Shown one piece after another: positions 19,318 through 57,046 of a stretch of DNA of 64,000 nt (position 1 is its first letter; each line of letters starts with the position of its first letter). Location of the stretch: contig FN649728.1 in NCBI GenBank assembly GCA_000310025.1, forward strand, positions 5,440,761-5,504,760, read 5' to 3'. Source of the stretch: Ectocarpus siliculosus (taxonomy: Eukaryota > Sar > Phaeophyceae > Ectocarpales > Ectocarpaceae). The notes under the pieces are model-generated. The model had not been told where the DNA came from and ran no database searches. It worked only from the letters and a program-made list of their open reading frames with translations. The translations under genes and the position numbers were made by a program.

Positions 19318-20345
19318 TCTCAACTCTTTGCTCGGTGCCGGCGCCAGCTTCACCGCTGGTTCGACGGGATGCGACGGACAAAATGATCGATGCCGCCATT
19401 TCCTGGGCGTCCTGTCTGCCGCGCTTCGCAGATGATCCCGGCTGGATGTGAAGGTGGTGTCGGCCATCTCGGGTAGATCGGCTCTTTACAAGGCCACAAC
19501 TGACATCTCGGGGCGACATGGCTGTCACCAAGGAGTTGATGATACTTGCCGGAGCCAACGTGAACTTTCGAGGCCCTTTGAACTCATTCGACGCCCTCAC
19601 GTCCGCCATTTGCGGCGGGCACGCTCATCAGCCATTGCAATCGATCTGGTGCTGGCCGGAGCAAGCGTTCGCAGTCGGGACGTGCGAGGTGAACCCCGCT
19701 CCATCATGCAGCCGCCTAGGATGGAATAATAACGTCCTTTTTTCAGCGATGCGAGCAAGGATGCTCTCGACAATCAATGGCGGGGGTCGTCCCCGCTGAT
19801 TTTGGGCAGTAAGTAAGACTTCGGCGGTAGAGACCCTGCTAGCCTCCGATGCCGATGTCAACATTCGCGACGTGTCATACTCGTGAGGGGCTCTTCATCA
19901 TATTTGCGCCATCAGGGTTGCTCGGAATACTGCGCAAGACACGGTCGAAAAGCTCTCCTTGATTAAGCGTGGGGCGGACCCGAACGGCGCTGACAAGCCT
20001 GATGGCGTCACTCCCCTCCACGTTGCTGCTGAGCATGATCAAGGACGCGCCATCAGCGCGCTGATTGAAGCGGGCGCTGACATGGAGCGGCGGTGCGGCG
20101 ATCATGGATTTACACCTCTAGCCGCGGGGCAATGCTCTCGCTCCTGCAGTACGGCGTTGACGTCAACGTGCAAACCAATCGTGAACACCCGCCAGTCATT
20201 GAGCTTGGCGTGCTGTGGGCCGTATGCCATATGTGGGCCTGGAGGCAGCCGTGGGCTTCCGCTGCAATGGGGGGCGGACGACGCGCACGACGTGGACAGA
20301 CAGCGGGTCAGGTCCTATCAGCTTGTTGCAGTTGACGGGCTATTG
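19318..20345 (+). pseudogene. Decayed ankyrin-repeat gene
   Basis: Pieces of at least five ankyrin repeats are readable on the plus strand, but in different frames and separated by stop codons. The clearest is at about 20000–20100, with GVTPLHVAAEHDQ followed by ALIEAGADMERR, matching the repeat consensus (TPLHxAA, then LLxxGAD). Others are LILAG-type ends at about 19535 (MILAGANVNFRG), 19640 (LVLAGASV), 19830 (LLASDADVNIRD) and 20135 (LLQYGVDVNV). Ankyrin repeats bind other proteins. No intron borders explain the frame changes, so I read this as a pseudogene rather than a spliced gene; an exon structure cannot be wholly excluded. The stretch to about 20.7 kb may hold its former 3' part but I recognise nothing in it. 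Confidence 0.65.
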
Positions 20346-20399
20346 GAGGTGAAAGAAGAAGTACCAGAGGGCCGTCGTGGTTGATCTGATCAGGAACGA

Positions 20400-23022: not shown

Positions 23023-26000
23023 TTAGAGGAGCATGCCGCCGAAAGCCATGGCAGCAACCACCACGCCGACGCAGGCGGACCCACCCGTGGGGAGCCTGGT
23101 CATGGACACGGCACCGTTGCCCTCGGCCGTGGCGTCCGCGTCGTCGGTGGCTGAGGGAACGGGGGTCGCCTCGACGCCGTCCGCTGAGTCGATGACTCCA
23201 TCACCTGGTCAGACAAAAGAGCGGGGTCACCACGACGTGGAGGGTCAGAGAGTAGAAAAAAGCGGCTGCGACAAACACTAAAATACCAAGAGCAAAAAAA
23301 AAGCAGGGACCGTTGGTGTAGGACGGGCGGCTTCCCGTGTTGTTAACACCAACAAGGCGCTAAGCACCCCATGGCCACACATCAAACAGGCAGCCAAGAG
23401 ACTATACCCGGGATGTCAGTAGGTGCCGGGGGAGGCACCACCTCTCGAGCCCCGTCTTGCTGTCGAGTCTCGAGAAGATGAGGGGGGTGCCGACAACAAC
23501 GACAAGAGAAAATCACCAAAAAGGCTATGCAAAAAAAGACAAAAGACAGCGTTTAACGCGAGGGAGGTTCTTCGACCTTCGACCTAGAAGCTGTCTCCTC
23601 CCTTGCGTTCCTCTCCTCTCCTCTCCTCCACTCTCACCGTTAGTGTCCGCCGGCGACGACGTCTCTCTGACGGGCGACGGGGTGGGCGCGTCGGTTACGT
23701 CGCCGATGTCGCGGGTGCCGTCCGCGGCCCCGCCCGGGGTAGGGGAGGCGGTGGTGGTGGCGGGAGTAGGAGCGGCGGTGGTGGCGGCGGGAGTAGGAGC
23801 GGCGGTGGGGGAAGCGGAAAGGACCACCACCTCATCCATCGAATCGACCACCCCTTCGCTTAAAATGTGAGGAGAGGCCAACGACGGGGGGGGGGGGGAG
23901 GGCGGTGAGGACGAGTCAGCCACGTGCAAGGACGCAGGGTTGTCGGCTCGAACAAAGCTTCGCAGTCGGTGAGCTTGTCGCGTGAGATGAGGGAAGCGAC
24001 AGATGTGAGCATGCCTCCCGTAACAGCATCAACACGGAATAGTTGAGCTCCACGGCTACACGCAGGCGAACATGCTTTCGGTGTGCACCTTACCGTTTGT
24101 GTCGCCCACGATCCCGGTGTCCGCGGAGTTGACCAGCCCGTCACCTGGCGTCGGCAGCATCGTACCGACGAACGGACGGACGGACGCGAAGGGAGGGAGA
24201 TATAGCTCAGGATATATGGATACTAGATACTATGATAGGACGCCAAGAACCACAGATCAAGGTCGTCCATAAACACACGTACCCGCCTGCATGCCTGCTT
24301 GCTCAACGCTCTAGACGTGAGGACAAGGAACGGGGTGAAACACCAGAAAACGGCACACCGACTGATGCCCAGGTAACAAAAAAGGCGATGTACCGCCGGA
24401 CAGAGAGAGACGCTCAAGAAGGCTCTAGATTTCAGTTCACAAGAATTGAACATTCCACATGATTAATTGACTGCGGGAATACAGGGTCTGCCTAACCGCG
24501 CATGTCGTAGGGGTGGCGGTGGAGCTCAGGGAGAGCTTTTCCTTTAGTGCCACGTCTGACCTGGCCTCTACAACAAGAGCACAGAAACAAGAGCACAACA
24601 AGAACCGAAGACAGTCACCTTCACATGCCGGGCCAAAAAATCAACATGTACTACTACAACGTGCTTGCCGCTCATTTTTTCTTGCTGCGGTCCAATCAAC
24701 GACACGGCTCAATACAAAAAACACACAAAATAGATTTTTTTGGGTTCAATTCTGGGTACTTCTATCTACTGTACTCTGCCAGCATGTAGCACACAAAGAG
24801 AGACCCACCGTTCACGTCAAGTAGCTGGGTAGGCGCCTGAGTGAACTGGAACTCCCGGGTCCCCGCGAGAGGGGCTTCCGTGGTGGCGACGGCTCCCGGG
24901 GCCACGGTGGTTCCGGGCGCGGCCACCGGCGGGAAGGTCGGGGCGGCCATGGGGGCGTCCGTGTAGGTGCCGTTGAGCATGATGCAAGGGGCCACGACGC
25001 CCACGTCGCAGTCGACCCCCGTGGTCAGGATGGTGGAAGAGCAGCAGCTGAGTTTTCACATTTGATTGTTGTTTGTATTCGGGTTTGTTGCACCGGCCAG
25101 GGAGAGGAGAGGACAGTCGACAGGCAGGCAGGGGGGGGGGGGGGGGGGGGGGGGCCCCCCCTTTTTAAAAATTTTCCACCCCTTTTTGAAGGGGGGGGGG
25201 GGGGGGGGGGGGGGAAAAAAAAACCCCTTTCCCGCAACAAAAAAATGGGGGCGGTGCTCTTAAAAAAAAATTTCCCCCAATTTCCCACCCCCACCCCGGG
25301 GGGGGGGGGGGGGGGGGGGGCCCCCCTTTTTTTTACGTGGGGGTGCGCCCCCCTATTTTTTTTNNNNNNNNNNNNNNNNNNNNNNNNNNNNNNNNNNNNN
25401 NNNNNNNNNNNNNNNNNNNNNNNNNNNNNNNNNNNNNNNNNNNNNNNNNNNNNNNNNNNNNNNGGGGGGGGGGGGGGGGGGGGGTGCAACATGACACCGT
25501 TCCGTGCAGACAGAGATGGTGCAGCGGTCTCGGTAACGAGATCTGCTCCGAAGTTGCGACACTACACCGCAGGGAGTGGGTGAGGAGGGGAGCCCCTCCT
25601 TATTGTACCCTGTTGTCGCGCACCACTTACTCTTCGGCTCCGTTGGTGCCGACGATAGAGCCGCAGCCTTCGCCTCCGCAGACACCGTTGCACTCCTCAG
25701 CGCAGCAGACGCTGCCATCCTGGACGCCGGCAATGCCGTTGGGGCACGTGGAGGCAACGAAGTCTGCGATGCGAGAGAGAGAGCGCGCCAAACAAACGAC
25801 GGGTTAAAATAGAGGGCAAACAAACAAGGATACAACCAGCGACCACAAACAGAAACCGTCAGGGCGAAGAAAAATCGTCGAGGACACCAACGAACACAGA
25901 GCACGAGCCGTAGGTCAACGCTGGCTGGCTTCTATACTACATATCTCAATTCGGCAAGGGATTCTTAGTGCGGGAAAGCGGAGGGGGCTGTTGGGCTCGG

Positions 26001-35241: not shown

Positions 35242-38200
35242 CTATTGCCGATAGAAATATCCCCCGCCCGCAGGGGATCTTCCGCCACCGGGGACGAACT
35301 GTCCCCCTGGGTAAAAGGTTAGAGTGGATCCTCCACCATACCCCCCCCCGGCCATATACGGGCTTCCCCCACCCATTCCTCCCGTGCCAGGGTACCCCCC
35401 TCCCATCGCGGGGGTCCCTCCCCCCATGCCACCACCACCGAACCCTCCCCCGCCTCCCATCATCGCCAGCATCATCATCAATGCGCTCGATTGGGACTGG
35501 GACTCCCGAGCCGCGCTGGCTTGAGCTTCGGCCGCCGCCGCTTTGGCTTCCTTGGCTTCGTCGAGTGCGACCTGGACCTCTTTCTTGAACGTTTCGGCCT
35601 GTTCGGCGAGCTCCGCCGTTTTCTGCTCTGCTTTCTCCCTGGCCTCGCGGTCATCTTTACCAGCGGCCGCGGCCCGGTTGAGCTCTTGAAGGCTGAGGTG
35701 CGCACCTGGTGGACATAAGGGAGTGTCAACGCGTTGTTATCGGTGGGAGTTTGTCACAACGGTTGTTCAGACGACGCGAAACTGCTACCTCGACCACTGC
35801 ACCGCTCACGACCTAACGGAGCATGCTCGAACCCGTCGGCAGCCGGCCTCACCCTTAACGAGGTCATTGAAATCCTTTCTCGTATCGGCCCAGCCTAGCT
35901 CATTGAGGAGGTCCGTGCGGACAAATTCGCCTCCCGTAGGCGTATTCTCGGTGACGAGACTTTTGATGTCCAGCTCGAGCTCGCCGAAATGTGAGGCCAC
36001 AAGCTGGTTCCACTGATCCTCGAGAACATTCTGGTCCAAAGGAAGGCTGAACGCTCTGGCCTGCGGCGGCAAGATGAAAACGTGGCGCATGAACCTGGTC
36101 AGCTCATCATCAACGAAGAAGCTGGTACACCAAGCATCTCGGCCTTAACTAGAAGGGACCACTGGTAATCAGGCCCACTTTCAATATCGTACCACACCCG
36201 GCCCCGTACATCACATCCAGACAGCTGCAGTCAACGAGCGCAGGAAAGGATTGCCGACGGCTCGACGCCGTGTCTGAAAATAGTGATAGATGCACTGTTC
36301 AAATTCACAGCTTGGGTTCACGTGATCCAACAACAGGTTTGTCCATCAACCGTGGACTCATACCAACCTTTTCGGCGACGTTCGCCTCATGTCCGCACGC
36401 TATTGCTCGCATCCTGCTCTTGAGTTCGTGCCGCTTCGATTCTTGGTTACGAGATACAACCTCAGCTTTGGGGGAAACCCGGTCCTCCAACTCCTTCTTC
36501 GCGTCTTCCACGATGCCGACTGAAATCCCCTGCAGGGAAAGAAACCGGCAGGCCAAAAAGCCATTGGAAGTGTCATCGAGTTCAATGGCTAGCACACACG
36601 TATGGAAGACAGAGATACGCGAAGTTGCAGCCCCCGCCAATACACTGTAGCCTTGCGGCTGCTTGTATTCTTCCGGATCTGCGGCTAACCGGAACAAGCG
36701 AATGCAACACAGCCATTGGTGCCGGACATTTGTGTACTCTAGAGGGTTCCACGGGTTTGACATGCGTCTACCGACGAACACGGCGTCGAACCATGGCGGC
36801 AGCCGGTAGTTTCGTACCTCTGATGCCACGCTGAACTGCTGGAGGACGTGCTTGCGAGCTTCATCAAGTGCGGTGTTTGTCTCCAGAGTACTAAGAGCGA
36901 AGTGGCCACCTGTGCGGTGACACGATGCCAAAGTTAAGCGAATAGGGTAAGATTTGCGAGACTAGCAATGGCACGCCAAGAAAAGGAACGGGGAGAGAGA
37001 TGCACTAAACCTCACCAAACGTTGATCCAAGCATCTTGTCGAACTCCACGAGGGCGCGTTGGACTTCTTGGTCAACCCGCGCAATGTCGATTGCCTCGAG
37101 CACACTGCGGACACGACACAGAACATGCAGGTCAAGGTAGGACGTTGTTCGACCCCAAAACAACGAAACCTCAAGCGAGGTGCTGTATGGTCTTCTACAA
37201 CACAGTGACGGACCAAACAAGACACGAACCATGAACGTGCCACGGAGGCTGCCCTCTCGAGAACACAGTGGCGTACTTCAAACCTGGGAGGACATATTTT
37301 CCCGGTTTCGTTGATGGATTTGCACAGCCCCCCCACGATGTCATTCATGCGCTGTCCGCCCGCTATTTCCTTCTTGGCGAAGGTATGGGAGCTCGCCAGA
37401 TAGCCTGCGATGATGCGCCTCAGCTGGCCGAGAGAAGCGCTGAACTCGGGCGTAACCGCCGACAGGGGCACGGCCCCACCTGCGACAAAGCGACGTTGTG
37501 GAGACGAGTGTCAAAGGCTGTGCTCTCTCCAATTCGTGCCCCGCAAACTCCACTCCACGCGACACTACTGTGAGTACTCGCTCGATCACAATGAGTGCGG
37601 AGAACGCACAGAGCGAAATAGCTCGTGGACACTCACGTTCGATGTTAGCATGAGGGCTGGGCATCGTATGGAAAGTGATGCTCTCGAACGCTTTCTTCAG
37701 CGTGGTGCGGATCAGGTTTCTCTCGGCCCCGTCCTTGGCGGCTTCGAAACTAAGGTCTTCCGTGTCCTCGATTCCCATGACGAAAGCCTCGGTTTCTGCG
37801 GCCCTGCCGGTCACGTCACGCAGGAGGATGATGAGGTGGCCGAAGGCGTGTTCCCGTTTGCCCTCTCCATTCACCACCTTTTCGGCGGCTTTGACCATGA
37901 CCAGCAGATCCTGCAGCATCGTAGTCTTGTTGGGCAAGAACATCCAGTTGTAGATTACTACCTGCAGTGGTTCGCGTGATCGGGCGTCGTTTTGCAGGGA
38001 AAGGCGATTCAACTACTTCACTGATGGATTTCCATTGGTCCGACATGCCTTGCCGAACAACAGCGAAGCACGTCTGGTGCAGCGTGTTCCCTGTGTGTCA
38101 ATACTCGTTATTCTCTCAAGACTTGAAGAATATTTCGCCCGGACAGACTGTCACACCCTCGGCTAACATCATGCTCTCATGGTTTCGTCATCCGTGCTTG

Positions 38201-40970
38201 AGCACCACACATGCTACAGGGGCGCCAGGCCACCCGAATACAATGCGCACACCGCGCCGATGGCTCGCTGTAACTTGAGCCCAGCGGCTGAAGGGTGGAA
38301 GGCCACCGCAGTACCCCGTTGGCGTGTACAGTACACGAGAAGGCCACGATCGAAACGATGATATGTATTTCTACACCGGGCGCAGGTGACCATCTGCGCG
38401 ATATTCTGGCGATGTGACGGGCGCTGAAGGGCTTCGTTCGAGTAAAGCTATGACTCCGATCCAGCGGCGCTGACTTTAGGTCATTGCTCACCTTTGACAC
38501 CACCAAGAAGGTCGTTGCAAGGCGCACGCCATGTTCATTGGACTTGTCACCCTGGCCTTCCATGTCCACGAACGCGATCGTTGGTTTGGGGGTAACAGGT
38601 GGTATGTGGCTCGTTTGACTCCCGCCAGCTCGCTCGAAGTCAGAAAGAGACGCGAGGAAAGGCGAGATGTCAGCCCCCGCTGTGCACGGCGCCACATTCG
38701 GCGACACAGGAAACAGGTCGTCGTGTCCCGTTAGCGCGTTCATCAGGAACGACTTGCCGCGTCTGGCGGCTCCCAGAATCGTGACGATGTTCAGCGGCTG
38801 GCCGGCGGGAACCGTATTCAACAATTGACAGGCTTCGTGCTTTACGCGAAGCACGCCGCACTTTTGGTCAGCAATGACCCAATTTTTGGCGGTGGGACTT
38901 CCCGGCATCACCACCGCATGAGGGGCTTGGGCACAGAAGGTTGCTTGCTCGAGGTACGTCTGGGCTTCTACTTTGCGCGATTCGGCTTCCTTCACGAGCT
39001 CTCCCACATTTCGAGCTGCCTTCTCTGCCGCCTCGATATCGTGCTTTCCTGCCCCCTCCACGGCACGTGCGAGCTCTTTTTGTGCCTCGCCCATGATCTG
39101 CGCTTCGGCGCTGGCATTTAATTCTTGCGTGCGCCTGATAGTTTCTTTCCAAGCCTGTTGTGCGTCAAAGTCGGCTTGCCCTTCCAAGCTCGTGACGGTC
39201 TCGTGGGCTTGCTTAGCTTCCGCCCCAGCCCTTTCACACTCTAGCATGGAAGATTTCATTCGTTCGGCCAGCTGGGTCACCATTTGGTCTGCCTCATCCC
39301 TGACCTTGCGGTCAGTATCGCCGTCCACCACCGCACGGTTGAGGGTTCTTGTGCAATGCTCCACCGCTGCTAGCAAGGAGTCAGATTGGGGGTTCGTCGT
39401 GGGATAAGGACGATTCACCCTCACGAATGCTGTAGATCGAGGCAGTCCACCGCACACGACGCGTCGCAAGCACGTTAACGTATGCACGTTTCACGTTATC
39501 TGCCACCGACTTTGCCGTCGTTGACTTTGCCTGCAAGCTCATATACACTCCATTTGTCGTAGCTTTGGTGACCTCTGTTGCTCTACGGTAAAGTTGCGTT
39601 ATTGAGCGAACACGAGGTGTGTGAAGGCAACAAAACTTTCCTCTTCGCATTGCTGCTTCACCAACTGCCGCCTCTCAGAGTGAGGGGAATTTCATTAATC
39701 CGTATCCATGTTGGCATACTTTGGCGCATTGCTGTCGGGGCTTCGTCGTGTACAAGTACGAACATAGCGGCACAACCCCATCCTGCGGGCATGGTAAACA
39801 TTTTGGTTTCTGATGATGATACTGCGCCTCTCCCACCCACGCAATCAGGCCAAATTGCTGTTGTTGTGTCGGTGGTACACGCTTTCAAACTTTAAAGGCG
39901 ACGAAATACGTGCAATACGTAGAACACCGACCACAGATGTGCCGACCTCGATTTTCTTCCTGCCGGTCTGATTCTGTACTGGATATCTACAAGATGAAAT
40001 AGGGACAAAACGGCGTACGTTCGGAATGCCATAGAGATGAATTTCCATCCATCCGCTTGGCCCTAGCCATGCAATCACTTTGCTCCACGTTTTCGCTGCC
40101 ATATTCATTTCATGTACGTAGACTTTGAAAATGTGAATTTACTGCATGTGGATGCGACCATTAAATGATTCATCTCCAGTGCCTGTTGTGGACGATTGCC
40201 TTCGCATTGGCATCGACGAAAAGATGTATATACACATGCCTGATGAGGGTGGAGGACAAACCGGGTTCGAACCCAGCCACCCAACAAAACGGGGCAGATC
40301 CACGAACAACAAGTGTCCACACTTCACGAACGCATCGCACCCGTAAAACACGTGAACACTGTGAAGAAGAGTATCCAGTTCTCCCAATACCTCCCAATAC
40401 CTCCTTGAATGTCTGAGGAGCAAACCAAAGAGGCCAAACAGTGTGGGGGGGGGATAGCATGTGGAGGTATCCGCACACAAGCTGCCATCGCCCCATCTCC
40501 CGCTGCCCGTCGAGGACGACTCCCTCTTTTAAACGCAGAACGGAAATTGGAGTCTTGGAAAGTGTCGGTTTATTGCTCACGTCTTGCATACAACCCCAAC
40601 GAGTCTGTTTCTGCCGCAAGCAGCAATTGCCTTGAGTAGCACTGAGTTTCTGTACGTGGATCACCGACACAGCCTGCTTGGCATCTGTTTGTTTTCGCTA
40701 TCGAGTAGGCGCGTTTCGCTACATAGTTCATGTCTCGATCATGCCGCCGGAGCTGGTCACTGAACAATCATGGAAGCCAGCGTTGGTTGGTGAGCAAGGA
40801 AACCAAGAGGCTAGTGCAAGTGACTGAGAATCCAGATCAACGAGACTTCTTCACAGGTTCTAGAGGAAGGGCTTACCCTTGAGTAGCTCCTCAAACGCCA
40901 CCGCATTTGACCTGTTGCAGCGAAGTTCGCCAAGCAGAGCTTCCTCTGTCGGCGTTCCTATCGTCACCAT
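35242..40970 (-). CDS. GBP-like large GTPase with chimeric N-terminus (9 exons)
   Basis: Guanylate-binding-protein family GTPase (dynamin superfamily), predicted 834 residues. Exons in transcript order: 40970–40877, 39366–38492, 37961–37637, 37479–37284, 37104–37016, 36909–36818, 36529–36368, 36060–35853, 35705–35242. Residues about 40–175 are a charged coiled coil. The G domain follows: P-loop GAARRGKSF (about 230), PCTAGAD (switch I), DMEGQGD (about 299) and LLRDV, the family's RD motif in place of NKxD. Helical regions come next, then a second coiled coil and a Gly-rich tail (GGGYGGGS, MGGG repeats). Starting at the ATG at 40970 and splicing with GTAAGC to the AG at 39367–39368 keeps phase. 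The donor at 36367 (GTTGGT) is the least certain border. The exon structure from the G domain on mirrors the paralogue at 45334–51587. The biological role is not shown; relatives remodel membranes or act in defence. Confidence 0.9.
39660..40108 (-). other. Possible decayed coding remnant in GBP intron 1
   Basis: Two overlapping minus-strand frames inside intron 1 of the first GBP gene read like protein (for example KVIAWLGPSGWMEIHLYG and KMFTMPAGWGCAAMFVLV). I recognise no family. It may be a fragment of a mobile element or a retired exon. Confidence 0.25.
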
Positions 40971-41703
40971 CTTTTCGCCATCGACACATGGTTATGATAC
41001 ACGGTACGAGAGAGCAACAGAAACGTATCATTGTACAAGTCTACGTATGTACAGTATCTACATATAGTCTATATGCACACATGGAGCAGATGTATCCGTA
41101 CATACATCGCGACGAAGTTCATGTTGTTCGAGACAAGTGCTGAACGTTGTAGCGAGAACCACTCAGAAAGACGACATTGATCATGAGTGGTCCACAAAAC
41201 GAAAGATATCCAAGGTCGTGCGGGGGTAGGTCCCGCAGCACGGAGCTGGTTGAGATGATCGGTGGAGCGAAGCGCACAAGGCAACCTTGCAAAAAAATGC
41301 GACCCCTGGAGGCAGAGAGAGAGGAAGCGGCTCAAAATACAGTGGTGCTGCAGTGCACAGGACACCCGCCCACATGACTTGGTACTCGAAGCCTCGATAT
41401 GTAGTGATTGCGTGAACAGGAAAACAGTTCACCACGCAAGTCTGTCTGTGCTTTTTTCGACGCAGGAGCATGCACCATCCCGACGCAGGCTGGCGACGAA
41501 GGCTGGCGGGTTTAAGTGGAGGGTCGCTTGACAGACTGCTGCATAGACTGCTGCATCAGCGCGGAGTTTTTCGTCCAACTCACTGCTGAGATTTTAATCG
41601 TTCTCATGGGCGTGCCCATGGGTAGCCAATGAGAGCCCTTCAAAACCGAATCAGTGTACTCCTAAACAATAGATTATCTGCTTTCGAATGGGCACTCTAA
41701 CAG

Positions 41704-41740
41704 CTATATCCCTAACGCTAACCGTAACCCTAACCCCAAG
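41704..41740 (-). repeat. Interstitial telomere-like tract
   Basis: A short run of imperfect CCCTAA/CGCTAA/CCGTAA units (read as TTAGGG-like on the minus strand), immediately before the CCATGGG-rich duplicated block. It is only about five units and is imperfect, so it may mark an old repair or insertion event rather than a former chromosome end. Confidence 0.7.
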
Positions 41741-41879
41741 CCCACACGAAACGTGTTAGGTGTGGCGCTGGTGGCTAAGTACTGCTGTAAGTTGATAACC
41801 CGGTGGCTAAATTCTAGGTTGATATGCCGGTGACGAAGTTCTACATAGATAGGTGGAAGTGCCCACGGTGGGTACTTCA

Positions 41880-42380
41880 TGGGCTGCCCATGGGCCGCCC
41901 ATGGGTATGCCCATGGGTGACCCATGGGAGTCCCATGGGTCGTTTGGGAAAACTGGTAGTAGTATGGGAGATTGCACCATTTGGCCGAGGAGTCAGGTAT
42001 TTGACCGGGCCAAGACGGATCGATCTCGACAAAGAAAGGTGGGTATTTGTGGACGGAGGAGGCCGAGGCTGTTGTTCCTCGACAGAAGCCTCGGTGTCGA
42101 CTATGCACATGCTGCTCAGCATTACAAGGGGCCCCATGAAGAGCCCATGGGCGGCCCATGGGTGACCCATGGGAGTCCCATGGGTCGTTTGGGAAAACTG
42201 TTACTACGGGTAGTATGGGAGATTGCACCATTTGGCCGAGGAGTCAGGTATTTGACTGGGCCAAGACGGGTCGATCTCGACAAAGGAAGGTGGGTATTGG
42301 TGGAAGGAGGAGACCGAGGCTATTTTTCCTCGACAGAAGCCTCGGTGTCGACTATGTACATGCTGCTCAGCATTACAATC
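41880..42380. repeat. Direct duplication of ~215–250 bases, each copy led by CCCATGGG dyads
   Basis: Two copies, about 41916–42127 and 42161–42378, differ by few substitutions and small indels. Each copy starts with a cluster of the self-complementary octamer CCCATGGG spaced 10–12 bases apart (for example 41888–41940 and 42142–42183). A related dyad pair sits at 41606–41624. Open frames cross both copies in several frames on both strands, which the repeat composition alone can explain. Confidence 0.9.
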
Positions 42381-44111
42381 TGCCCTGGACGAGGCCATCC
42401 TTGATCTGCAATGAAATAAAAGCGTCTGAGATTGGCTACCGCCAGCTCCCGGTTCGGAATAGGAACGAATTCGATAGTACCTTATTTTACCCACCGCCTC
42501 CCGGGCAGATCGGCTCCCAAGCGCTAACATTTGTGAGTGAGACGACGAATAGCCGCCGGCGTGTGAAGCAAGCTATGAAAAACACCTACAAAAAGACCGC
42601 TGTGGTACATACAGCGCTCGCTTTTACACCTGAACTCTACAGCAGTATATCCCGCCGCAAAACATGGAGAATCGACCCACATCTATTTTATGACGTCAAC
42701 CCGTCACGAGCTGGAGGATGAGGGGAAACCCTATCTGAAGTAGTTTAGCGTCTTCTGTCCTTACCGTGAATAGTGACCTGACGGCTTGCCTGACGCTGGC
42801 GGTGGTCTGCAGGCGGGCGGCGTACGGACTGGAGGGCAAAAAGGCAGCTTTCAATGGGTTGCACCGATCACAGACGTACGTACGAACGTGTGGGTTTCGG
42901 AGGGATTTGTGGGAGTAATCAATTGTCATTGTGCATCATTCATTGGGGTCTGTTGTAGGATTCAGATGTGTAGACGGAACATACATTGTAGAGGAGAATG
43001 GTTCGGAGAGATGTAACTCCCCGCGTAAGGATAGAACAAAGGGGGCATGATCTTATTATTAATGTAGTAGCCCCTGCTTGAACAGAGGATCCTGGCCCCT
43101 TGGTATCATTCCTACCGATACATACCCAAGGCAACAGCTACTGCTTAGCTGCTGCTGCTGTTCCGCAAGAGGAATAACGAGTTGGTTCTTCTTCACGGGT
43201 GTACTGTAGTACCAGATCGCACCACGCGTGCATACGTTTCTTTGCAGGTCGACACAGACGATGCCTGTAGGCTGGAAGTGGGACCAAGCTTTTGCGGGTT
43301 GCGACTTGAACATGTATGATTTGTTAAAAAAAATAACAGAGGGACGCTGTTTTCTGCACACATGAGTACAGTAGAGACAACAGCTAGATGATGATGTAAA
43401 CCTCGAGGTCATGATGGCAGCCCGAGACAGGGTGATGGCACGTCGTAAGTTATTTGAAAGGCGAAGGTTTACCGGTGGTCGCTGCGCGGTAGAGCGGCCA
43501 TGCGTAGGCTTCCGGACCTTGGAATAACACGTCTTCAACTCGGAGGCATGTAGACTGCTGTATGCATGCATGTGCGTGCATACGCTCCGAATAATCAATC
43601 CATTGGTACGTACAATCCCGTTCGACTGTGGGTATATCTCGAGTGGGTAGTCTTTCTGTGTGTGTTTTTATCATTCCTTAATGACCAGGCCCGCTTGACC
43701 GAACCCACACACAGAGAACGCACAATGTGAGCCCTGCCCGCGCCCATACGCTCCTGCTTTTCCCAGAAGAGCACACCAGCACAAACAACCACATCAACCT
43801 CCCCTCTAGCAGTGCACCCAACCCCACCTCGGCTTGCTCCCACCACCACCAGCTAGATGTATGCGATATGGTTCGTCAATCCTGGGATTAGCTCCTGTGC
43901 TGCCAACAACCATAGATCATGGCCCAAAGACTTGACTGGGCGTACAGTAAAACCGTCGCGTCGCCGGTGTATTTATCAAACAATCAAAACAGTTCAGTTG
44001 CTGTCAACACTCACACACATGCATAATGTAGCCTTTCACTCTCAGAAAAGTTCTCTTCTTGCAGTAGACACTGTAGATAACAACAAGGTAGCCTTTCAAC
44101 AATCTCTCCGA

Positions 44112-44151
44112 ATAGACTTGGTACGTACCAGATAGACTTGGTACGTACCAG
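44112..44151. repeat. 20-base tandem duplication containing GGTACGTACC palindrome
   Basis: Two exact adjacent copies of ATAGACTTGGTACGTACCAG, each holding a ten-base palindrome. It lies upstream of the second GBP gene. Confidence 0.9.
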
Positions 44152-44429
44152 ACTTTCTTTTCATTATCAACAATCAATCACGTATGGTCGTCTTTCATTA
44201 TCAACAATCACGCATGTTAACGTCGAAACACCGAGTTTCCCCGGGCATGTGGACCCCTCTGGGTGGAACACGCCCCCACACACCACAACACGGTATTTTG
44301 TCCACAGAAGAAAACCAAACATCCGCCAATTGGTCACATCGAACAAAGGGTGAGTCCCGAGATACATAGGTAGTGTGTCAAATGTTGCCGTAACCTTGAG
44401 GATGCACACCGTGCGTCGAAGGATATCTT

Positions 44430-44470
44430 GATGTCGGTCCTGCCGACAAATGTCGGTCCTGCCGACAAAT
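44430..44470. repeat. Duplicated 20-base hairpin
   Basis: Two adjacent copies of TGTCGGTCCTGCCGACAAA. Each can fold into a stem of TGTCGG with CCGACA around a short loop. The location is about 0.9 kb upstream of the second GBP gene. Confidence 0.85.
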
Positions 44471-45333
44471 CGCACATCCGCGGAAGCCTTCGTTTTCTTT
44501 TCTTAACACGTGTGTGTGTGTGTATAATGTCGGGGGTCTTCGCATGCCTCTCTCACTGAGCACGCCCATGACAATGTGTTCCATGTGCTCACCATCTCCT
44601 TCTCTTTTCCTCGTTAATACAGTAGTTCGCCGTCATCCACCAGGCAATATTCATATGTCACTCCACGAGGTCATGAGGAAAGACATGTTCACCGAAGCTC
44701 CCTGTACTGCTGTGTAGATGCCTTGCCAACACTGTGCTATGTACGAACACTTGGACAGTGTTGATAGGACCAATTCTTGCTGCGGTGCTGTTGTACCCGT
44801 AACTGCAAGACGTGAGGTGCGGTGTCGGTGAAGACCAAAGAGAGTCTCATGTGAAGAAGAGTTATACAGGGGTGTTGTGTCGGGTCTGATGCACTCGAAT
44901 CTGAACATGTTTGCCACAAACATTTTTCGGCGAAAATACCATGGAGTAGATGCAATGCATGTCCATTTCGTGAGCGCGCAGCAAACAACAGACGAATATC
45001 AATGGCTTCTCCCCTCTCACGGAGTCGAAGAAACAAACAGGCACAGGTGCTGGCTTGCGAAACAAACAATCTGGGTAAACTTCAATCAAAGTTTCATCCA
45101 CCTGTATGTGTACGTAGTCTATTCGTCAAAATCTCGGCAAAATTCCAACCAAGGCTTCATCTGCCTTCATCCTGCTTGATTTATTCGTTTGAGACGAGTG
45201 AAGTCGGTGGAATCCCACGTTCCGGCTCAACATCAACCGCAGCGGTCAGCTTGACCGCCAAACGATGCTCTGTGAAAGATGACCCAGAACATGTTGTACT
45301 CACCCCGTTTATTCTTCAGCAGGTCGCATCGAT

Positions 45334-48300
45334 ATGGAAACCGCTGTAAAATGGGTCACTGTCACTGACGGGAGGCTTCAGGCAACCGAGGAAGCATGCG
45401 AGCGGCTTTCGAACGTTTCCGACGACCAGTCACTGAGCGTCGTCACGATTCTCGGCGCCGCAAGGCAGGGAAAGTCCTTCCTAATGAATGCGCTGACACG
45501 TTCCGACAACGTCTTTCGTGTGTCACCTGAAGTGTATCCGTGCACGGAGGGAGTCGACCTCTTTCCCATCCTGATGCCTCTGTCCGAGTTCAAGAGGGGG
45601 AGCGCGCGCAACATCACTCACCTTCCCTCAAGCTCGCCGCAACCCACGATCGGATTTGTAGACATGGAGGGTCAAGGAGATCGGTCTGACGAACGTGACG
45701 TGCGCCTAGCAACACCGTTCCTACTGGTTTCCAAGGTGAGGGTGGGGAGCACTCGTGACAAGGATCGGTGTGAAAACCTGTCGCGTTCGGAATTCGATTG
45801 TGTTTTCCCTACCCTCACCATCAATTACCACGGTTAGCCTGAAACATTCATTTCTTTCAGCAGTAGTCCTTCTTTGTCACGTGTCTGCCCGCTATTGCGA
45901 TGTTCAGATTTGCTGCTGCCATGGGTGGTATTCACGATTACAGATGATCATGCGGCTGTTGTATTGGTTGCCCCGGTTTTCGCCGACTACCGGTCGACGA
46001 ACAACGTTTTTTTCCATCGTGTTACAATATGTGTAGCAATATGTACTGTCGGCCACGAAACACTCAACATTGCTCTGTTCGTCGAGGAAATCTAAACTCA
46101 AAGTTCATCGATTTTCATTGTGTTTCCTAAGCTTGAAAAGGCAGGAAATCAACACTCATTCTTGACCTCTGCTCGAAATCCAGACCATGTCTGTCTATTG
46201 TCTTCAACCAATCAGAGCTCGAGTTGGTATTTATCTTGATTTGTTAACCTCGAACCTCGTTACTCCGTGTCTATTCGCATGTTGTTGCTGTCTTCACACT
46301 GAAAACCGTTCCGATCTCTCAACCCAGTACCTCCTTCTGTCCGTACTGATCAAACACTTACCGAGAGATTCCCGTGGTCACAGGCTATGTAACTTACCAA
46401 GGTACACTCAAATCAAATGGACCCGAAGGGTCCGCCAGTCAAGTAAAATCAACGAACCACCGATAGTTTGGGGCCCTCTCGGCTCCCCTCTACACACGCG
46501 ATATGTGGGACAGAAATGAACAGGACTTCAACATCGCCGGCCAGAGAGAGACAGGTCATCCGGGGAATTTACGAAAAGGACAAAACAGAATGAAAGATAA
46601 AAAAGCACAAAGAGAAGAGGAAAAGGAAAAACGAGACAGGAAACAAATATTTAACAACGACACAGACACGAAGGCAAAAATAAGCCACACGCCACCTCAC
46701 AAACCGAACACACACAATCAGGGCCACCATCAACAGCCAAGGCATGTCCTCATTCGTGGGGGTATGAAGCAATGGTGTAATGACGGGGAGGGGGGGGGGG
46801 GGGGGCATCAGCGAATGAGTTCAATTCGGTCTATGTTGCCACGAGACGTGCAGTATAAAGTATGAAAATATGTGAACCGGCCTAAAATCATCAAATTATG
46901 CTTTCCTCTGTAGTTTGAAACACAAAGTCCGTATATTTTCGACCTTGGACACATAATTCAGCCAGTAACCTTCCCAGGTTTTGCAACAAATAACATTATT
47001 GGGTATTGAAAGAAAATGCAACGGGGTTGCATGGACCACCATGAGGTACCATGAGAACATTTCAACTTCGACAATGCTATTTGCCCCACCCGTGGAGTGA
47101 ATTCATAATTGCTCCACAAGGCAGATCTCCGCCCACAGAGCTCCAATCGACTTCAAACCAATTGAATCGTGTAGGCTACAGCTAACTCAAAAGCTACTTT
47201 AGAAGGTGAATCAGACCAGTGGCTGCAGAGATATGCGGAAAAAAGCGGATTCCGCAGCATATCAGGAAGTAGCAATCGTCTCGAACCTCCGTCCACACAG
47301 CTCCAATTGACCCCAGACCGTTCGCATCGTGTTAGCACGGTCCATACCGTTCATGCAAGCTATCGCATACTCAAATTCAATATATTTCTGCAGAGAGTGG
47401 TCAACAGAGGGGGTTCCGCAGCATCTAGGGGGGAGGGGGTAAATGTCATGAGTCCCGCTATACCTCCCATCACATAGTTGAAACGCGCCTACATTTGACC
47501 GCACCGTGTTGGCACGGCTCACAGCTATCATTCAAGCCATCGGGCACCCCAATCGGACCACCAGTGGGTGCAGAGGAACGCCCACCAACGGGGGATCAGT
47601 GTCTTAAAGGCCGGTGGAGCAGATAACCCATACCTGCTCCACCAGGTCAAACTCTATCTACAGGGCGTCGTTTGCCCTATGAAAACTTGCGGTGTGTCGG
47701 CACCGCTCACAGCTATCATGCTAGCCATCGGACACCGCAATCGTACCAGTGGGTGCGGTTTCAACTTTAGGAACGCTGCCCAATGTGGCGATATGAACAA
47801 AGTTGGGCTGCACACAATATGAAATAAAAAACCGAAATGTGGTACCTCGTCATTCGCCATGGACTGTTTTCGTCGCTTCATGGTACAAACATACAGGAGA
47901 GATAAATGGAACAAGAGAAGAGGGAGCCTGAGAAAGCTGAATTGCTGTCATGGAGCAGCACTATGATGGCACATCTCACCATCATGTTCCCAAACCTCCC
48001 ATGGTGCACCATGAGGGCCCATTGTGCGTGACAGTAGATCATGAGAGTTGGGAAAGAGGTGGCCTTAGGTCATGATGTGCATAGTACAGCAGACGGGAGG
48101 CAGAGGAATAACTCTTGTGTGGGCTTCATCCTTTTTGAGCCCGGCTGTCGCGTCCAACATTTGTCCAAAAAATTGTAAACGGCCGAAGGCAAGAACAAAA
48201 GAGATGATGAATCATATCTAGGACGTACCTCTGACTAATACACACATTGAGGATGAACTATGCTGTTTTTTTTCAAACAGGCGACGGAGGTTGCCCTGTT

Positions 48301-51300
48301 GCGGGAGAACGACGCACAGGGAAGCATGCTATCAAGGGGCTAAACCCGACATTTGGGACCAAGTATCAACCAAACAAATCACACTCATTCCCCGTAGATG
48401 CGAACACCAGTGGAACAGTACAAGAGGACGACACGCTCATTTGTTCCTCCTGTAATATTTGCAGGTCGTCATCTTCAACTGGCTGGGCTTGCCCAACAAG
48501 AGCACCATCCTGGAACGGCTGGTGGTGATGATAAAGGCTGCTGAAAAGGTATCGAGGCGCAAGAACAAAGGTGAGCCCATGTTCGGCCACCTCATCCTCG
48601 TGATGCGCGACGTGAAACAGAAGGCTGCGGAGATCGAGGCGCTGATCATGGACGACGAGGATGGCGGCCTGACGCACGAAGATGCTGAAGGCGTGACGGA
48701 GCGCAACCTCATCCGGAAGAGGCTGAGGGCGGTCTTCAAAAGCACGGTCGTCCACACGATGCACCGCCCCCACCCGGACATAGCAGGTGACGATGTAACA
48801 ACAACAAGAAATATCACGACGTTTTGCGGCGCAAAGGCACGTTGCGCACGCCAAGGCAAGGGTAGAACGGCAATCTTACATATGTTTGTTGTAGTTCCCG
48901 CAAACCATCGCCAACTGGGCGATAGTCATTTTTTGTTCCAGGCTATTGGACATTTCTGTGACTCAATCACCGACCCGCCTGATGTCCCTGTATCTCCGGC
49001 AGACGAAGCGGTGCCTCTGTCTGAGGTATCTCCAGGGTTCACGACCTCGCTCGATGAGCTGAGGGACACTATCGCAGAACACCTCACGACCCCGCACACC
49101 TTCGCTGGCCAGCCCATTGCTGGCGGACAGCGCCTCCATGACATCGTCCGAGGCCTGTGCGAGGCAGTCAACTCCACCGGGGATATCTGCCCTCCCAGGT
49201 GCGTATTAAATGTGTAGAAGCTCCTATCGTGAACACAAAAGAAACCTCGCCGGCTTGCCAGACTTGAGGTTGCAGCAGATGGGAGGACGGCGTGTCTTTT
49301 GTATCATCTTCTGGAGCCCGCCCTCCTGAACAGCGGGCATGTCAGCCGGACGAGGCGATCGTTCTTCGAGGAAACAGGACGCTCCGGCGATTGGATTCGC
49401 TGGCGGATCGTTGTGACACCTCAAGATGACGGGGGCATACATAGTCCATGGTGGTTGTCAGGGCTCCTGTGGTCAAGGTTACATCTGTATTTGTCGTATG
49501 GCATGTATGTAGTACCACGTTGTCGCATTGCTTCGCCGGCCTGACTCTGACCTTTGCGAGCACGGGAACGACAACACCATTCGCAGCGTGCTCGAAGCCA
49601 TCGACATGAGGTGCACTCAGGAGGAGAAGGAAAAGGCGCTCGTCCTTTTCGACGCCATGATTAGTTCGGCCAGAAACGGTGAGCGTGGAATGCGGTTTAG
49701 TTCCTTTGCTTCGGCGCCCTGTGAAGTACTAGCATAAGAACGAGTTTACAGCTCAACATGTACTCTGTGTAGGCCGGTAGAGCAAGAGAGGGAGGCGTGC
49801 CTAAGAAGAAGAGGTCCAGAGGAACGTAATTCGAGGCATAGAAGTGACTAGCGTGGTGGAATACATCTTCGTGTCTCTTGTTGTGTGCGATGGAACGAGG
49901 CTGCTTGGGAAATGTGTTGTTGTGCTGATCTTCCCAGCACACTTTCCGCTCCATTCTGGCCACACGCTATGTGCAGGTGTCTTGGTATTCAGCACGCGCG
50001 AGGTTACTCGTACCATCAATGACGCTCGCGAAAAGGCGTTCGAGCAGTTCGACCAGGCGACACAGGTACCGGCCACTCCTTCAATGCAGGTTACGCTGAA
50101 ACAATAGAAGAAGTGGATGCTGCCACGATTATCATGGTCGGAGAAGCTAAGACCGAACCTCGTTACGGTGTTTAGTGGTTTTGGGAGGGGCCCCAATCGC
50201 TGTTATCAATCTGCCTCGGGCAATTGATAACAATACTGCGGTGAAATGGTATAACCCGAATGTGCGCATCTATCTGATGGTACGAAGGAGGCCAAGTCCT
50301 TGAACCCGTTGAACTCTATGGCTTGCTCCGACTAGCGCACCGTCGGTTAACCACTGGCATAATTCGCCATACGCAGGCGATATCTTCGCGCATCACGAAG
50401 GGCGTGCACGAAGAGCTGGTCGAGCAGATGTCGCCCAAAGCTGCGGTTGTGGCTGGCAGCCAAGACACGAAGCGTCGTGAGCTTTCAGCCAAGATGCAAG
50501 CGCGGGTATCATCAGCCGAAGCGGACGTTTCCGGGACGGCGCTGGGTTGGAACGCGGTAAGCCGGTTCTTTTTGGGTGTTTCCCGCACGCTTGCCGAGTA
50601 GGTCTAACATATCTAGCGTGGGGAAGATTCACATGGAGACGATCGTCTGAACAAATATCTTCGAGGCGAATACGGGCGTATTGTAGACGGTGCCAGAATG
50701 TAACAAACGACGCGAACGTGCCGATAGTACAGTCCCCGTTGATGTTATGCCACTAAGCCAGACCCTCCCAATCGAATGTCGATCCAGATGAACGAGGACG
50801 GCGATCCTACCGGCATCGACGAACACAACCTCAATACGCAATGGAACCAGCTTGTCCGATCCACGTTCCAAGCCCTTCAGAAGGATCTCAAGAAAATGGC
50901 CACTGTCAATCGCGTGGTGAACGAGGCTCTGCTCCATGAACTGGGCTGGAATCTATCGACGAAGCAGTTCGAAGGTCTCGTCAAGGGTAAGACATGCGTT
51001 CCTGTACCAGATCAGAGCTCGCGGTACAGGCTCGCTGACAGCCGCCCACCGACGCAAAAGAACGACATTTGGAGGCCATAGAATGTCCTCACATCAGTGT
51101 TGGGCTCGATCTGATGACTAAACAACAGATCCATGCGGTTGCTATGTCCCTATGGTGCAGCGTATTCAAATGCCAACCTTGTCTGCATCTACGTGTTGCA
51201 GGTACGCGCACGCAGGTGCAGGAACGCAACCGCACGGCGCTTGCACGCGAGGAGGACCGCAAGGCCAAGGAAGCCGCCGAGAAAAGGGCCAAAGAGCTGG

Positions 51301-51587
51301 CCGACCAAAACGCATCGTTGGAGAGGGAAACCGCGGCGGCTAATCGGCAGCGAGACGACGCACGGCGACAACAGCAACGGCGACAGGAACCGGAAAGTTC
51401 GAACGACTCGTATGGAAACTTGCAACGTGCATGGCTCGCGCACCGCCTGTTGGGCGGAGGCTACGGAGGAAATGGGGGCTACGGAGGCTATGGGGGGTAT
51501 GGGGGATACGGAGGATACGGAGGATACGGAGGATACGGAGGCTATGGAGGATACGGAGGGTTCAACCCGTTCGGAGGCTACCGGTAA
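45334..51587 (+). CDS. GBP-like large GTPase with Gly/Tyr-rich tail (8 exons)
   Basis: Second GBP-family GTPase, predicted 621 residues from the ATG at 45334. Exons: 45334–45735, 48465–48786, 49003–49198, 49587–49678, 49977–50065, 50377–50556, 50788–50986, 51202–51587; all introns are GT–AG and the phases agree. G domain: P-loop GAARQGKSF (41–49), YPCTEGVD (switch I), DMEGQGD (110–116), VMRDV (about 181–185). Helical segments follow, including SVLEAID and LHELGWN, then a coiled coil rich in Glu, Arg and Ala (about 496–555), and about 35 residues of GGY units ending GGFNPFGGYR. Exon lengths and phases largely match the first GBP gene; the third coding exon is 196 bases in both. Intron 1 is 2.7 kb and holds a degenerate repeat array. 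An extra 5' exon is possible. The glycine/tyrosine tail may mediate self-association; that is inference. Confidence 0.92.
47110..47775. repeat. Degenerate ~170-base tandem repeat in GBP intron 1
   Basis: Four diverged units starting near 47122, 47284, 47460 and 47630. Shared landmarks are an ACCTCC(G/C) start, CACAGCTCCAAT, a CGTGTTGGCACGG-type block and a GCAAGC(C/T)ATCG-type block. Units are only partly alike, so the array is old. It occupies the 2.7-kb first intron of the second GBP gene. Confidence 0.75.
51463..51563 (+). repeat. Coding repeat of GGA-TAC-GGA units
   Basis: Imperfect nine-base units, in frame, encode the Gly-Gly-Tyr tail of the second GBP protein. Third positions vary (GGA/GGC/GGG, TAC/TAT). 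This shows the repeat has been kept at the protein level for some time, while its length could still vary between strains. Confidence 0.95.
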
Positions 51588-54275: not shown

Positions 54276-55933
54276 AGAAAAAATACGACATGGATGAATA
54301 AAATCATGTCGAAAACCAGAGAAGAAAGGAAAAAGGGTGGCGAAAAAGGGATTCTCGATCCCGAGACTTCGAGTGCACGGAGGCTTGGTTGGACCTCATG
54401 GGATAGATGTCACCAAACAATTTTTACTCGTCGGACAATATTTGCCTTGATGTATGTAGCGCTCACGGTTATTTCCCTTGAATTATCTCCACATTGCCCC
54501 CAAGCCAAAATGGTAACGCGAAAAATCTGATGACTTTTTGTTTTTGTTGTTTCCACGGTTCTGAATATCTTTGTGGTTCTCCCTCGCTTGCTTCTCTCGT
54601 CTCCACTCTGCCAAAAGATCACGAAATCGATTCCAAGTGTTGTTTGGAGCCACTTGAATTTTCGGCGCCGCCACCAAAGAGAAAGTATAAAAAGTCAGAA
54701 ACGCCTCAGACACCGACCGATACGGTCACTTGGGCGTGGCAAGAAGGTCAACATAGTTATCAACCTTCCCACCCAAAACGAAGTTCCGATCGTGATCATC
54801 GAAGCCATGGTTAGAACCAGGTGGAACCACCTAAAATTAGATCGCCACGCCTTTTGTTGTTATCTGCAACCAACAAAAGGCTTGTCCATGGCCAGAAATC
54901 TACCTGTGTGACGAAGGCACTGGAACAAAAGCTAGGAATACACCCATTATGATGACAAGATGGCCACCAGAAAGACCTCTTGGTGACTAGAAAACAACAT
55001 GCGCTAGCAATCATACAGAAGGGCTAAATACACGTATGTACCAAGTAGCACCTGACGCTGAACATCCCCCGCCCAGCCTTGGTCACTCTCGAGAAACCCA
55101 GGGGAAATTATGTAAGCTCTTCCCCCTCCCCGCCTTTTCAAACTTGGTGTACCCTTTACTTCCCCGAGTCTCAAAAGAAAGACGAAGAAATGCCAAGCTC
55201 TACATGTCCCCTCCACTTTCAAAGCACAAATGCCACTAGTAGACTACTCCATTAATTTACAGTCAGCAAAATACGAATCCTCTGCCCCCCACCCCGTCAA
55301 GTTCTCAAACAAACATCTCCTTTCACCTTTGACCCGTGTTTTGATCAGCCTTGGGTGTATTTTCAGTGAGCACGAGCGAAACATACGCACCTGACACACT
55401 CAAAAATAGTATGCTACAAACTCCCGGACAAGCTTTTCGTTTGGGTTGTCGGTGCAGCCAATACCGTCACCATTTTCTTTCTTGAACTGCATTGTTTTCC
55501 TTCACTCAACAAAGGAAATCTCACCGATGACCCCGTGTTTTCACGCCCAACATACATATATATATGTACGTTTCCCGTGTGGTGTTGGCCCTGTGGAGCT
55601 CAAGTGCCATCGGCACGTCTCCAAGCATGGAATCCGCTTTGAGTCACTTGTGCCCCCCCCCCCCACACATTGAAAACCCGCAATGTACACCGAACGGCAG
55701 CAACGACATCGAGGGACACTTCTTGGGTCATCTGTGCTGTCCAAGAAAAAAACGCCAGCAACACACACCTTGTAACATGTATCCACCAAGCACACAAACA
55801 ATCATTCATGATGATCAACGACATAGGGCTACCCACGTAGACGTAGATTTTTCCTGCACGCAAAATATGAAACCAATGGACAGTGCCTTCATGCCCACAA
55901 CACCAACGTCAATATGCTGCCTTCCTAACACAT
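54276..55933. other. Interval without a supported gene
   Basis: Short plus-strand frames near 54500–54910 read partly like protein (for example KKVNIVINLPTQNEVPIVII), but in more than one frame and without a recognisable domain. A decayed gene or element is possible. Confidence 0.35.
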
Positions 55934-56512
55934 NNNNNNNNNNNNNNNNNNNNNNNNNNNNNNNNNNNNNNNNNNNNNNNNNNNNNNNNNNNNNNNNNNN
56001 NNNNNNNNNNNNNNNNNNNNNNNNNNNNNNNNNNNNNNNNNNNNNNNNNNNNNNNNNNNNNNNNNNNNNNNNNNNNNNNNNNNNNNNNNNNNNNNNNNNN
56101 NNNNNNNNNNNNNNNNNNNNNNNNNNNNNNNNNNNNNNNNNNNNNNNNNNNNNNNNNNNNNNNNNNNNNNNNNNNNNNNNNNNNNNNNNNNNNNNNNNNN
56201 NNNNNNNNNNNNNNNNNNNNNNNNNNNNNNNNNNNNNNNNNNNNNNNNNNNNNNNNNNNNNNNNNNNNNNNNNNNNNNNNNNNNNNNNNNNNNNNNNNNN
56301 NNNNNNNNNNNNNNNNNNNNNNNNNNNNNNNNNNNNNNNNNNNNNNNNNNNNNNNNNNNNNNNNNNNNNNNNNNNNNNNNNNNNNNNNNNNNNNNNNNNN
56401 NNNNNNNNNNNNNNNNNNNNNNNNNNNNNNNNNNNNNNNNNNNNNNNNNNNNNNNNNNNNNNNNNNNNNNNNNNNNNNNNNNNNNNNNNNNNNNNNNNNN
56501 NNNNNNNNNNNN
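55934..56512. other. Assembly gap of 579 N
   Basis: Unsequenced stretch. The length is not a round number, so it was probably sized from spanning data. Open frames that run through it carry no information. Confidence 0.99.
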
Positions 56513-57046
56513 TAGAATATTAGTCGAGCACCCAAACCATAAAACCAATGCACACAGCCTGACCATGCACCCAACATCAAAGGTAAAAATCGAACACCTT
56601 CTCAACACATTAACCCCAAACCGAAAGACTGCAACAGCTTCCCTTGCAGAATACTTAACATTCCTTGGGTGGTCAATAAATAAACACCTCTCGCGTATGA
56701 TCATGAGATGGTATGTGCGTTACTGGAGATCCCCCTTTTTAAGGGCGGCATCCGGAGTCTAGGTCAACCTGGGTTACCGATCCTGTGTGGCAAACATTCA
56801 CCTTTTAACGGGGCCGGAGGCAGCAAGAAAAGAAGCACGTAAAATAAAAAGTCAAACAGTTTCAACCAGTAGGAAAACGGTGGCCGACAATACAAGACCA
56901 CCTCGAGACATGAAAGCAACATGCACGTTGCCAATTGGAATGAAACATAAACCGACGCAGCCAAGCGAAAAACAAGGAAGTTCATTCAACGCACCACCCT
57001 AACCAGTTGAAAAGGAAAAGCAACCAACTCGCACAAGGAAAATCAC

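Follow-up and report, generated by a model that had tools for sequence, protein, structure and literature searches.

A GBP-type large GTPase gene of Ectocarpus siliculosus with a probable 5' extension derived from GBP tail exons

The window analysed here, a stretch of 64,000 nucleotides on contig C3 of Ectocarpus siliculosus, contains two divergent GBP genes, named A (minus strand) and B (plus strand). Gene A probably encodes a large GTPase of the GBP type, its coding sequence lengthened at the 5' end by GBP tail exons; a long transcript carrying the extension, and pairing through the N-terminal coils, are predicted along with it. The homology part of this interpretation is well supported by the sequence comparisons described below. 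The predicted layout of the A protein is coil-coil-GTPase-helical-coil-Gly tail. The first-pass annotation had proposed the order coil-GTPase-helix-coil-Gly tail; the coil ahead of the GTPase domain was recovered in our analysis, and a second tail-like coil (39079-38936) had been missed.

Genome searches with PF02263 and with A exon 2, over a search space of 189 Mb in 492 contigs, reached a second divergent GBP pair, C and D, on contig C33. All four genes were modelled by hand, from splice sites and mutual comparison, as uninterrupted proteins of 834 (A), 621 (B), 645 (C) and 626 (D) residues without the stop. Eight exons make up each of B, C and D (phases 0,0,1,2,1,0,0,1), and the same phases were found in the last seven exons of A; since the borders were set by hand with mutual reference, this shared plan does not amount to four independent results. 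In the D model, the penultimate-to-last intron required a GC donor. An extra exon and a coil before the GTPase domain were found only in A among the four modelled genes, the surplus consisting of exon 1 and about 150 codons at the front of the G-domain exon (Table 1).

Table 1. Hand-modelled features of GBP genes A and B, in window positions.
Feature	Position	Strand	Description
Gene A, whole	40970-35242	-	Hand model
Gene A, exon 1	40877..40970	-	Matches the last ~31 codons of the GBP penultimate exon; ends AAGG/gtaagc, phase 1
Gene A, intron 1	39367..40876	-	1.5 kb; no other GBP exon found inside
Gene A, exon 2	38492..39366	-	Two tail-like coils and a complete GBP first (G-domain) exon in a single open frame
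Tail-like coil 1	39197..39366	-	Same register, counted from the splice site, as the A-D last exons
Tail-like coil 2	38936..39079	-	22/45 aligned residues identical to A's own tail coil
Ordinary GBP first exon in A	38492..38908	-	Retains a Met (MPGSPTAKNWV) close to the usual start; P-loop GAARRGKS, DMEGQGD
Gene A, remainder	35242..37961	-	Exons 37961-37637, 37479-37284, 37104-37016, 36909-36818, 36529-36368
Gene A, last two exons	36060-35853, 35705-35242	-	Penultimate exon; last exon with coil, Gly-rich tail, FYPGGQFVPGGGRSPAGG
Gene B	45334..51587	+	Divergent GBP paralogue, no N-terminal module in the model
Gene B, exons	45334-45735, 48465-48786, 49003-49198, 49587-49678, 49977-50065, 50377-50556, 50788-50986, 51202-51587	+	

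The GBP N-terminal GTPase domain (PF02263) was matched by the three genes scanned, A, B and C, at 41.4, 45.9 and 49.8 bits, against a cut-off of 21.1, and all four genes contain GxxxxGKS, D[MV]EGQGD and a hydrophobic-RD-[VL] stretch, the RD of which we take to be the GBP form at the G4 position. For that position, the part of a GBP review consulted gives (N/T)KxD (PMC9005921). The best solved relatives were chains named GBP5, GBP2 and GBP1. The PF02263 match starts at residue 13 in B, 39 in C and 204 in A, that is, the GTPase domain is N-terminal in B and C and not in A. The C-terminal helical domain GBP_C (presumably PF02841) gave no match up to E 1 in A, B or C with HMMER, whose filters drop most weak matches; the helical exons are present in these three genes, and are either too diverged from GBP_C or of another kind. 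A match of A to a URGCP-like GTPase, at 12.9 bits, was far below the cut-off of 55.

A more distant GBP, with a P-loop and DVEGQGD, was found in two open frames of contig C8 (L018, 6072-3790, minus strand), and neither a penultimate nor a tail exon was found for it in the 15.5 kb searched. Among the best candidates scored in the genome searches, no further G domain of this type was found beyond A-D and the C8 member. The PF02263 matches on contigs C4, the strongest of the genome search, and C2 look by eye like other large GTPases; since the N-termini of these matches lie outside the models, A is the only extended gene among the four modelled ones. No N-terminal module was found on C or D. When 1307 ORFs from C33 (26.0 kb) and C8 (15.5 kb) were searched with the penultimate and tail profiles, those genes' own penultimate and tail exons were returned, followed by matches at E 0.091 (penultimate) and E 1.1 (tail). 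No relative was confirmed in viral contigs (69 pattern stretches) or in bacterial and archaeal genomes (581).

Exon 1 of gene A (40970-40877) is translated as MVTIGTPTEEALLGELRCNRSNAVAFEELLK. When 39367-45333 was searched by tblastn with 33 exon proteins of A-D, two penultimate exons matched 40982-40878, that of C at E 0.004 and that of B at E 0.022 (E-values scaled to a database of nominally 100 kb). This bears out the proposal that exon 1 resembles the end of the penultimate GBP exon, and takes the match four codons further upstream than claimed. The homology begins at 40982, four codons (DGEK) 5' of the ATG, and ends at the last full codon, so that the proposed start falls opposite the donor-exon Met within KKM[V/A]T; directly 5' of the open frame 40991-40863 there is an in-frame stop. 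Shuffled versions of exon 1 reached its score in 0/500 cases against B and 0/500 against C, with only weak similarity to A (21/500) and none to D (472/500).

In a six-frame profile search of the window, exon 1 ranked third of 1930 ORFs (E 0.056), behind two real penultimate exons. A chance match to the same profile in the control contigs C33 and C8 (1307 ORFs) had an E-value of 0.091 and spans 13 profile positions, against 34 for exon 1. Used as a whole-genome query, exon 1 returned no place except itself. Its donor site had the best score among the 113 GTs in 41000-39380. Taken alone, exon 1 is unconvincing; its position, the shared phase 1 and the exact end carry the conviction.

Exon 2 of gene A is entered at phase 1, like the last exons of A, B, C and D in the hand models, as had been claimed for this junction. 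When coil 1 was compared with the four tails without gaps, residue 1 on residue 1, offset 0 was the best of 90 offsets for 4/4 tails, so the earlier claim that coil 1 and the tail coils lie at identical spacing from the splice site is right. Identities in this anchored alignment, per 57 residues, were 19 with A, 12 with B, 11 with C and 9 with D, and the scores were matched by 0, 0, 0 and 5 of 5000 shuffles, respectively. Heptad-block shuffles equalled the coil 1 score in 1 (A), 1 (B), 0 (C) and 138 (D) per 1000. Joined to exon 1, the coil scored 40.2 bits against a four-tail profile, the best of 5000 shuffles reaching 19.3. With gaps, similarity to tail D was not clear, as the coil 1 score was reached by 51/500 shuffles and the joined score by 103/500.

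In the window, the tail profile found A exon 2 at E 0.0016, third after two real tails, and its best non-tail match in the control contigs had E 1.1. The C tail, as a query over the 189 Mb, returned four places, namely the tails of C, A and B and coil 1 of A exon 2 (E 3.67). In the reverse direction, the 147-residue coil region of A gave as best other places the A tail (E 0.17) and the C tail (E 0.69), values that are not significant alone.

A second tail-like coil follows in the same exon: residues 97-142 of exon 2 (from 39079) match the tail coil of A at 22/45 aligned residues, and coil 1 has 19/46 residues identical to that tail. The A tail, as a query over the 189 Mb, returned six places: itself, the C tail (E 1.5e-4), coil 1 (E 0.009), coil 2 (E 0.040), the B tail (E 0.081) and an unrelated place (E 1.9), both N-terminal coils of A thus outranking the real tail of B. 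Coil 2 alone, as a genome query, found the A tail at E 0.33. No resemblance beyond shuffles was detected between coil 2 and the tails of B, C and D, nor was any found in the direct comparison of coil 1 with coil 2. Later copying of the tail of A may have given rise to coil 2, a reading that is favoured over a chance likeness of an Ala/Glu/Lys-rich helix.

Coil-to-tail nucleotide identity is about 60% (82/135 and 83/138), indicating that the event is old or that the coil evolves fast. Codon positions 1, 2 and 3 were kept at 31, 30 and 21 of 45, and at 30, 30 and 23 of 46, between the coils and the A tail. Positions 1 and 2 are thus better kept than position 3, as under protein selection, a pattern that could come from the tail side alone. 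An AlphaFold model of exon 2 had a mean pLDDT of 44.8 and a pTM of 0.27, with low-confidence helices predicted at residues 17-60, 66-104 and 110-146, numbered from the first full codon; this model supports only the helical prediction.

Codon usage and the open frame support the N-terminus of A as coding sequence. With the remaining exons as the codon-usage reference, the 184 codons ahead of the old start scored 0.333 bits per codon, compared with 0.293 for B and 0.304 for C, which belong to the training set; none of 406 overlapping non-coding windows of equal length exceeded -0.13. Exon 1 alone scored 0.286 bits per codon, whereas 430 windows as long as this exon never went above 0.214, and the score drops 5' of the exon 2 acceptor and 5' of 40982. 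Under simulated neutral drift to 75% identity, the frame stayed open in 32/2000 simulations. The exon 2 acceptor (39366) scored 4.3, below 27/28 other acceptors (range 2.8-13.3), and was outside the top 8 of 127 AGs scored.

The models of B, C and D start with METAVKWV, MGRQRLGASTAIKWV and MDPSSAVKWV, respectively, and the Met that A keeps at 38908 lies within a few residues of this position. The module therefore seems to have been put ahead of a complete coding start, not to have replaced part of it, and a shorter product from this internal start would also be possible.

On the proposed course of events, tail exons of a GBP, an A/B/C-type copy and possibly A itself, would have extended the coding sequence of A at its 5' end. 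The transferred parts would comprise the end of the penultimate exon, an intron of phase 1 and the front of the last exon, where the coil is encoded. The donor stop codon and Gly-rich end are missing, and the coil continues without a break into the former coding start. Translation would now most likely begin at the ATG aligned with the donor-exon Met (KKMVT), and the presence of a second tail-like coil suggests that the coil was duplicated once more. The donor is assigned to the A/B/C type because the joined module scored 120 against C, 110 against A, 105 against B and 45 against D. A donor tree did not place it (ultrafast bootstrap 50 and 42).

How the tail exons reached this position can be read in two ways that fit. 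The first-pass annotation had the N-terminus made from the C-terminal exons of another GBP copy, left by the collapse of a tandem duplication: homology, order, register and phase agree with such exons as the source, and the collapse of a whole tandem copy found no such backing, since apart from the exon 1 matches the 33 exon proteins gave nothing below E 0.40 in 39367-45333 (tblastn). Two head-to-tail copies, the first losing its front before fusion, would thus be plausible only, because no other third-copy exon was found near and because copying of the gene's own tail would leave the same anatomy. In the latter case, A would have received at its 5' end a copy of its own tail exons, or of just one fragment of the tail, and a collapsed full tandem gene would never have existed, to which we give somewhat less than an even chance. 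Both N-terminal coils are closest to the tail of A (19/46 and 22/45 identical), and no further third-copy exon was found in 39367-45333; against it, the penultimate exons of B and C resemble exon 1 more closely than that of A does, the joined module scores highest with C, and the tree leaves the donor unplaced.

Two further explanations would deny the module its role or its ancestry. It could be a relic, the transcript starting in exon 2, translation beginning at the Met at 38908 or at a Met in coil 1, and exon 1 being dead. The Met kept near the starts of the B, C and D models and the poor exon 2 acceptor would fit this, but we regard it as unlikely, given 184 open codons with coding usage, exon 1 included, an exon 1 donor that is the best of its region, and the stops that neutral drift would usually have introduced. 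That unrelated Ala/Glu/Lys-rich coiled coils merely look alike is very improbable and was already disfavoured by the register: offset 0 was best for all tails, heptad-block shuffles seldom equalled the coil 1 score except with D, GBP tails top the genome lists, and exon 1, which has the shared phase-1 end, is found immediately upstream. What speaks for chance is that single genome-wide E-values are modest, that the control-contig match has an E-value similar to that of exon 1, and that coil 1 does not rise above shuffles against tail D.

A 5' extension by GBP tail exons, the reading preferred here, sets A apart from the layouts that have been described. In the sections consulted of a GBP review, the GTPase domain is N-terminal with the helical parts behind it, whereas A has tail-type coils ahead of the GTPase domain (PMC9005921). 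In plant GBPLs, too, the helical domain is followed by a coiled coil at the C-terminus (PMC9629626). GVIN1, a related giant GTPase that coats bacteria, and the very large inducible GTPases are described as having an N-terminal domain before the large GTPase domain, a non-standard order based on AlphaFold (PMC11974893). As given in that description, GVIN1 has two GTPase domains per chain, in contrast to the single one of A with its tail-derived N-terminus of ~184 residues. Phase-compatible exon duplication in candidate immune GTPases, as in A, is known from the brown-algal ROCO genes, although those shuffle 72-bp phase-2 LRR exons, as far as the cited portion goes, and A would have gained phase-1 coil exons of a GBP (PMC11378527). 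No GBP of this kind was found in print in searches of open-licence papers, those for brown-algal and Ectocarpus GBPs included.

The model of permutation by duplication predicts, in the part cited, partly duplicated intermediates with one end truncated, and A likewise has a tail-type module on both sides of one full copy (PMC3320104). It differs from such intermediates in that the repeat covers no full domain but just the coil and the end of the helical part, and since its own tail is intact nothing has been permuted yet. Gene A is a possible half-way product of permutation by duplication. It could be traced as a case of the predicted partly duplicated intermediate through the shared phase-1 intron, the kept Met and the splice-anchored register.

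GBPs assemble around targets. The N-terminal coils of A could perhaps pair with the tail coils of A itself or of B and C, linking GTPase assemblies at both ends, which we hold to be a tentative proposal with a little under an even chance. Plant GBPL3 contacts the nucleoskeleton via disordered coiled-coil regions, according to the excerpt used (PMC9629626). With tail-type coils also at its front, a GBP would put to the test the extent to which domain order matters for assembly. It is rather doubtful that gene A represents a functional midpoint in the circular permutation of a dynamin-superfamily GTPase. On this reading, the upstream copy would have lost its front, an internal Met of the penultimate exon would now serve as start, and the coils, doubled later, would pair with the A, B and C tails and so give the protein another handle for assembly, ahead of the GTPase.

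Several other features were observed in and around these genes. The A/B pair (window 40970-45334) and the C/D pair (C33, 1044.4-1047.3 kb) are both head-to-head, possibly an old duplicated or conserved arrangement; in a protein tree of A-D, the A/B and C/D pairs were not clearly grouped (bootstrap 56). The tails of A (window 35245-35334), C (L014) and D (L015) end in the common motif FY[PK]GG[QV]F[IV]PGGG..P.GG, and the last 30 residues of A, as a genome query, found only three places, the tails of A, C and D. The B tail, unlike these, ends in GGY repeats, and a nine-base repeat array encoding GGY units was found at the end of gene B (window 51455-51584). The window has N runs at about 25360-25460 and 55930-56515. 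An open frame at window 19887-20384 (plus strand) resembles ankyrin repeats by eye. Between A and B there is a 176-base direct repeat (41959-42134 and 42210-42385, 93%) with CCCATGGG boxes.
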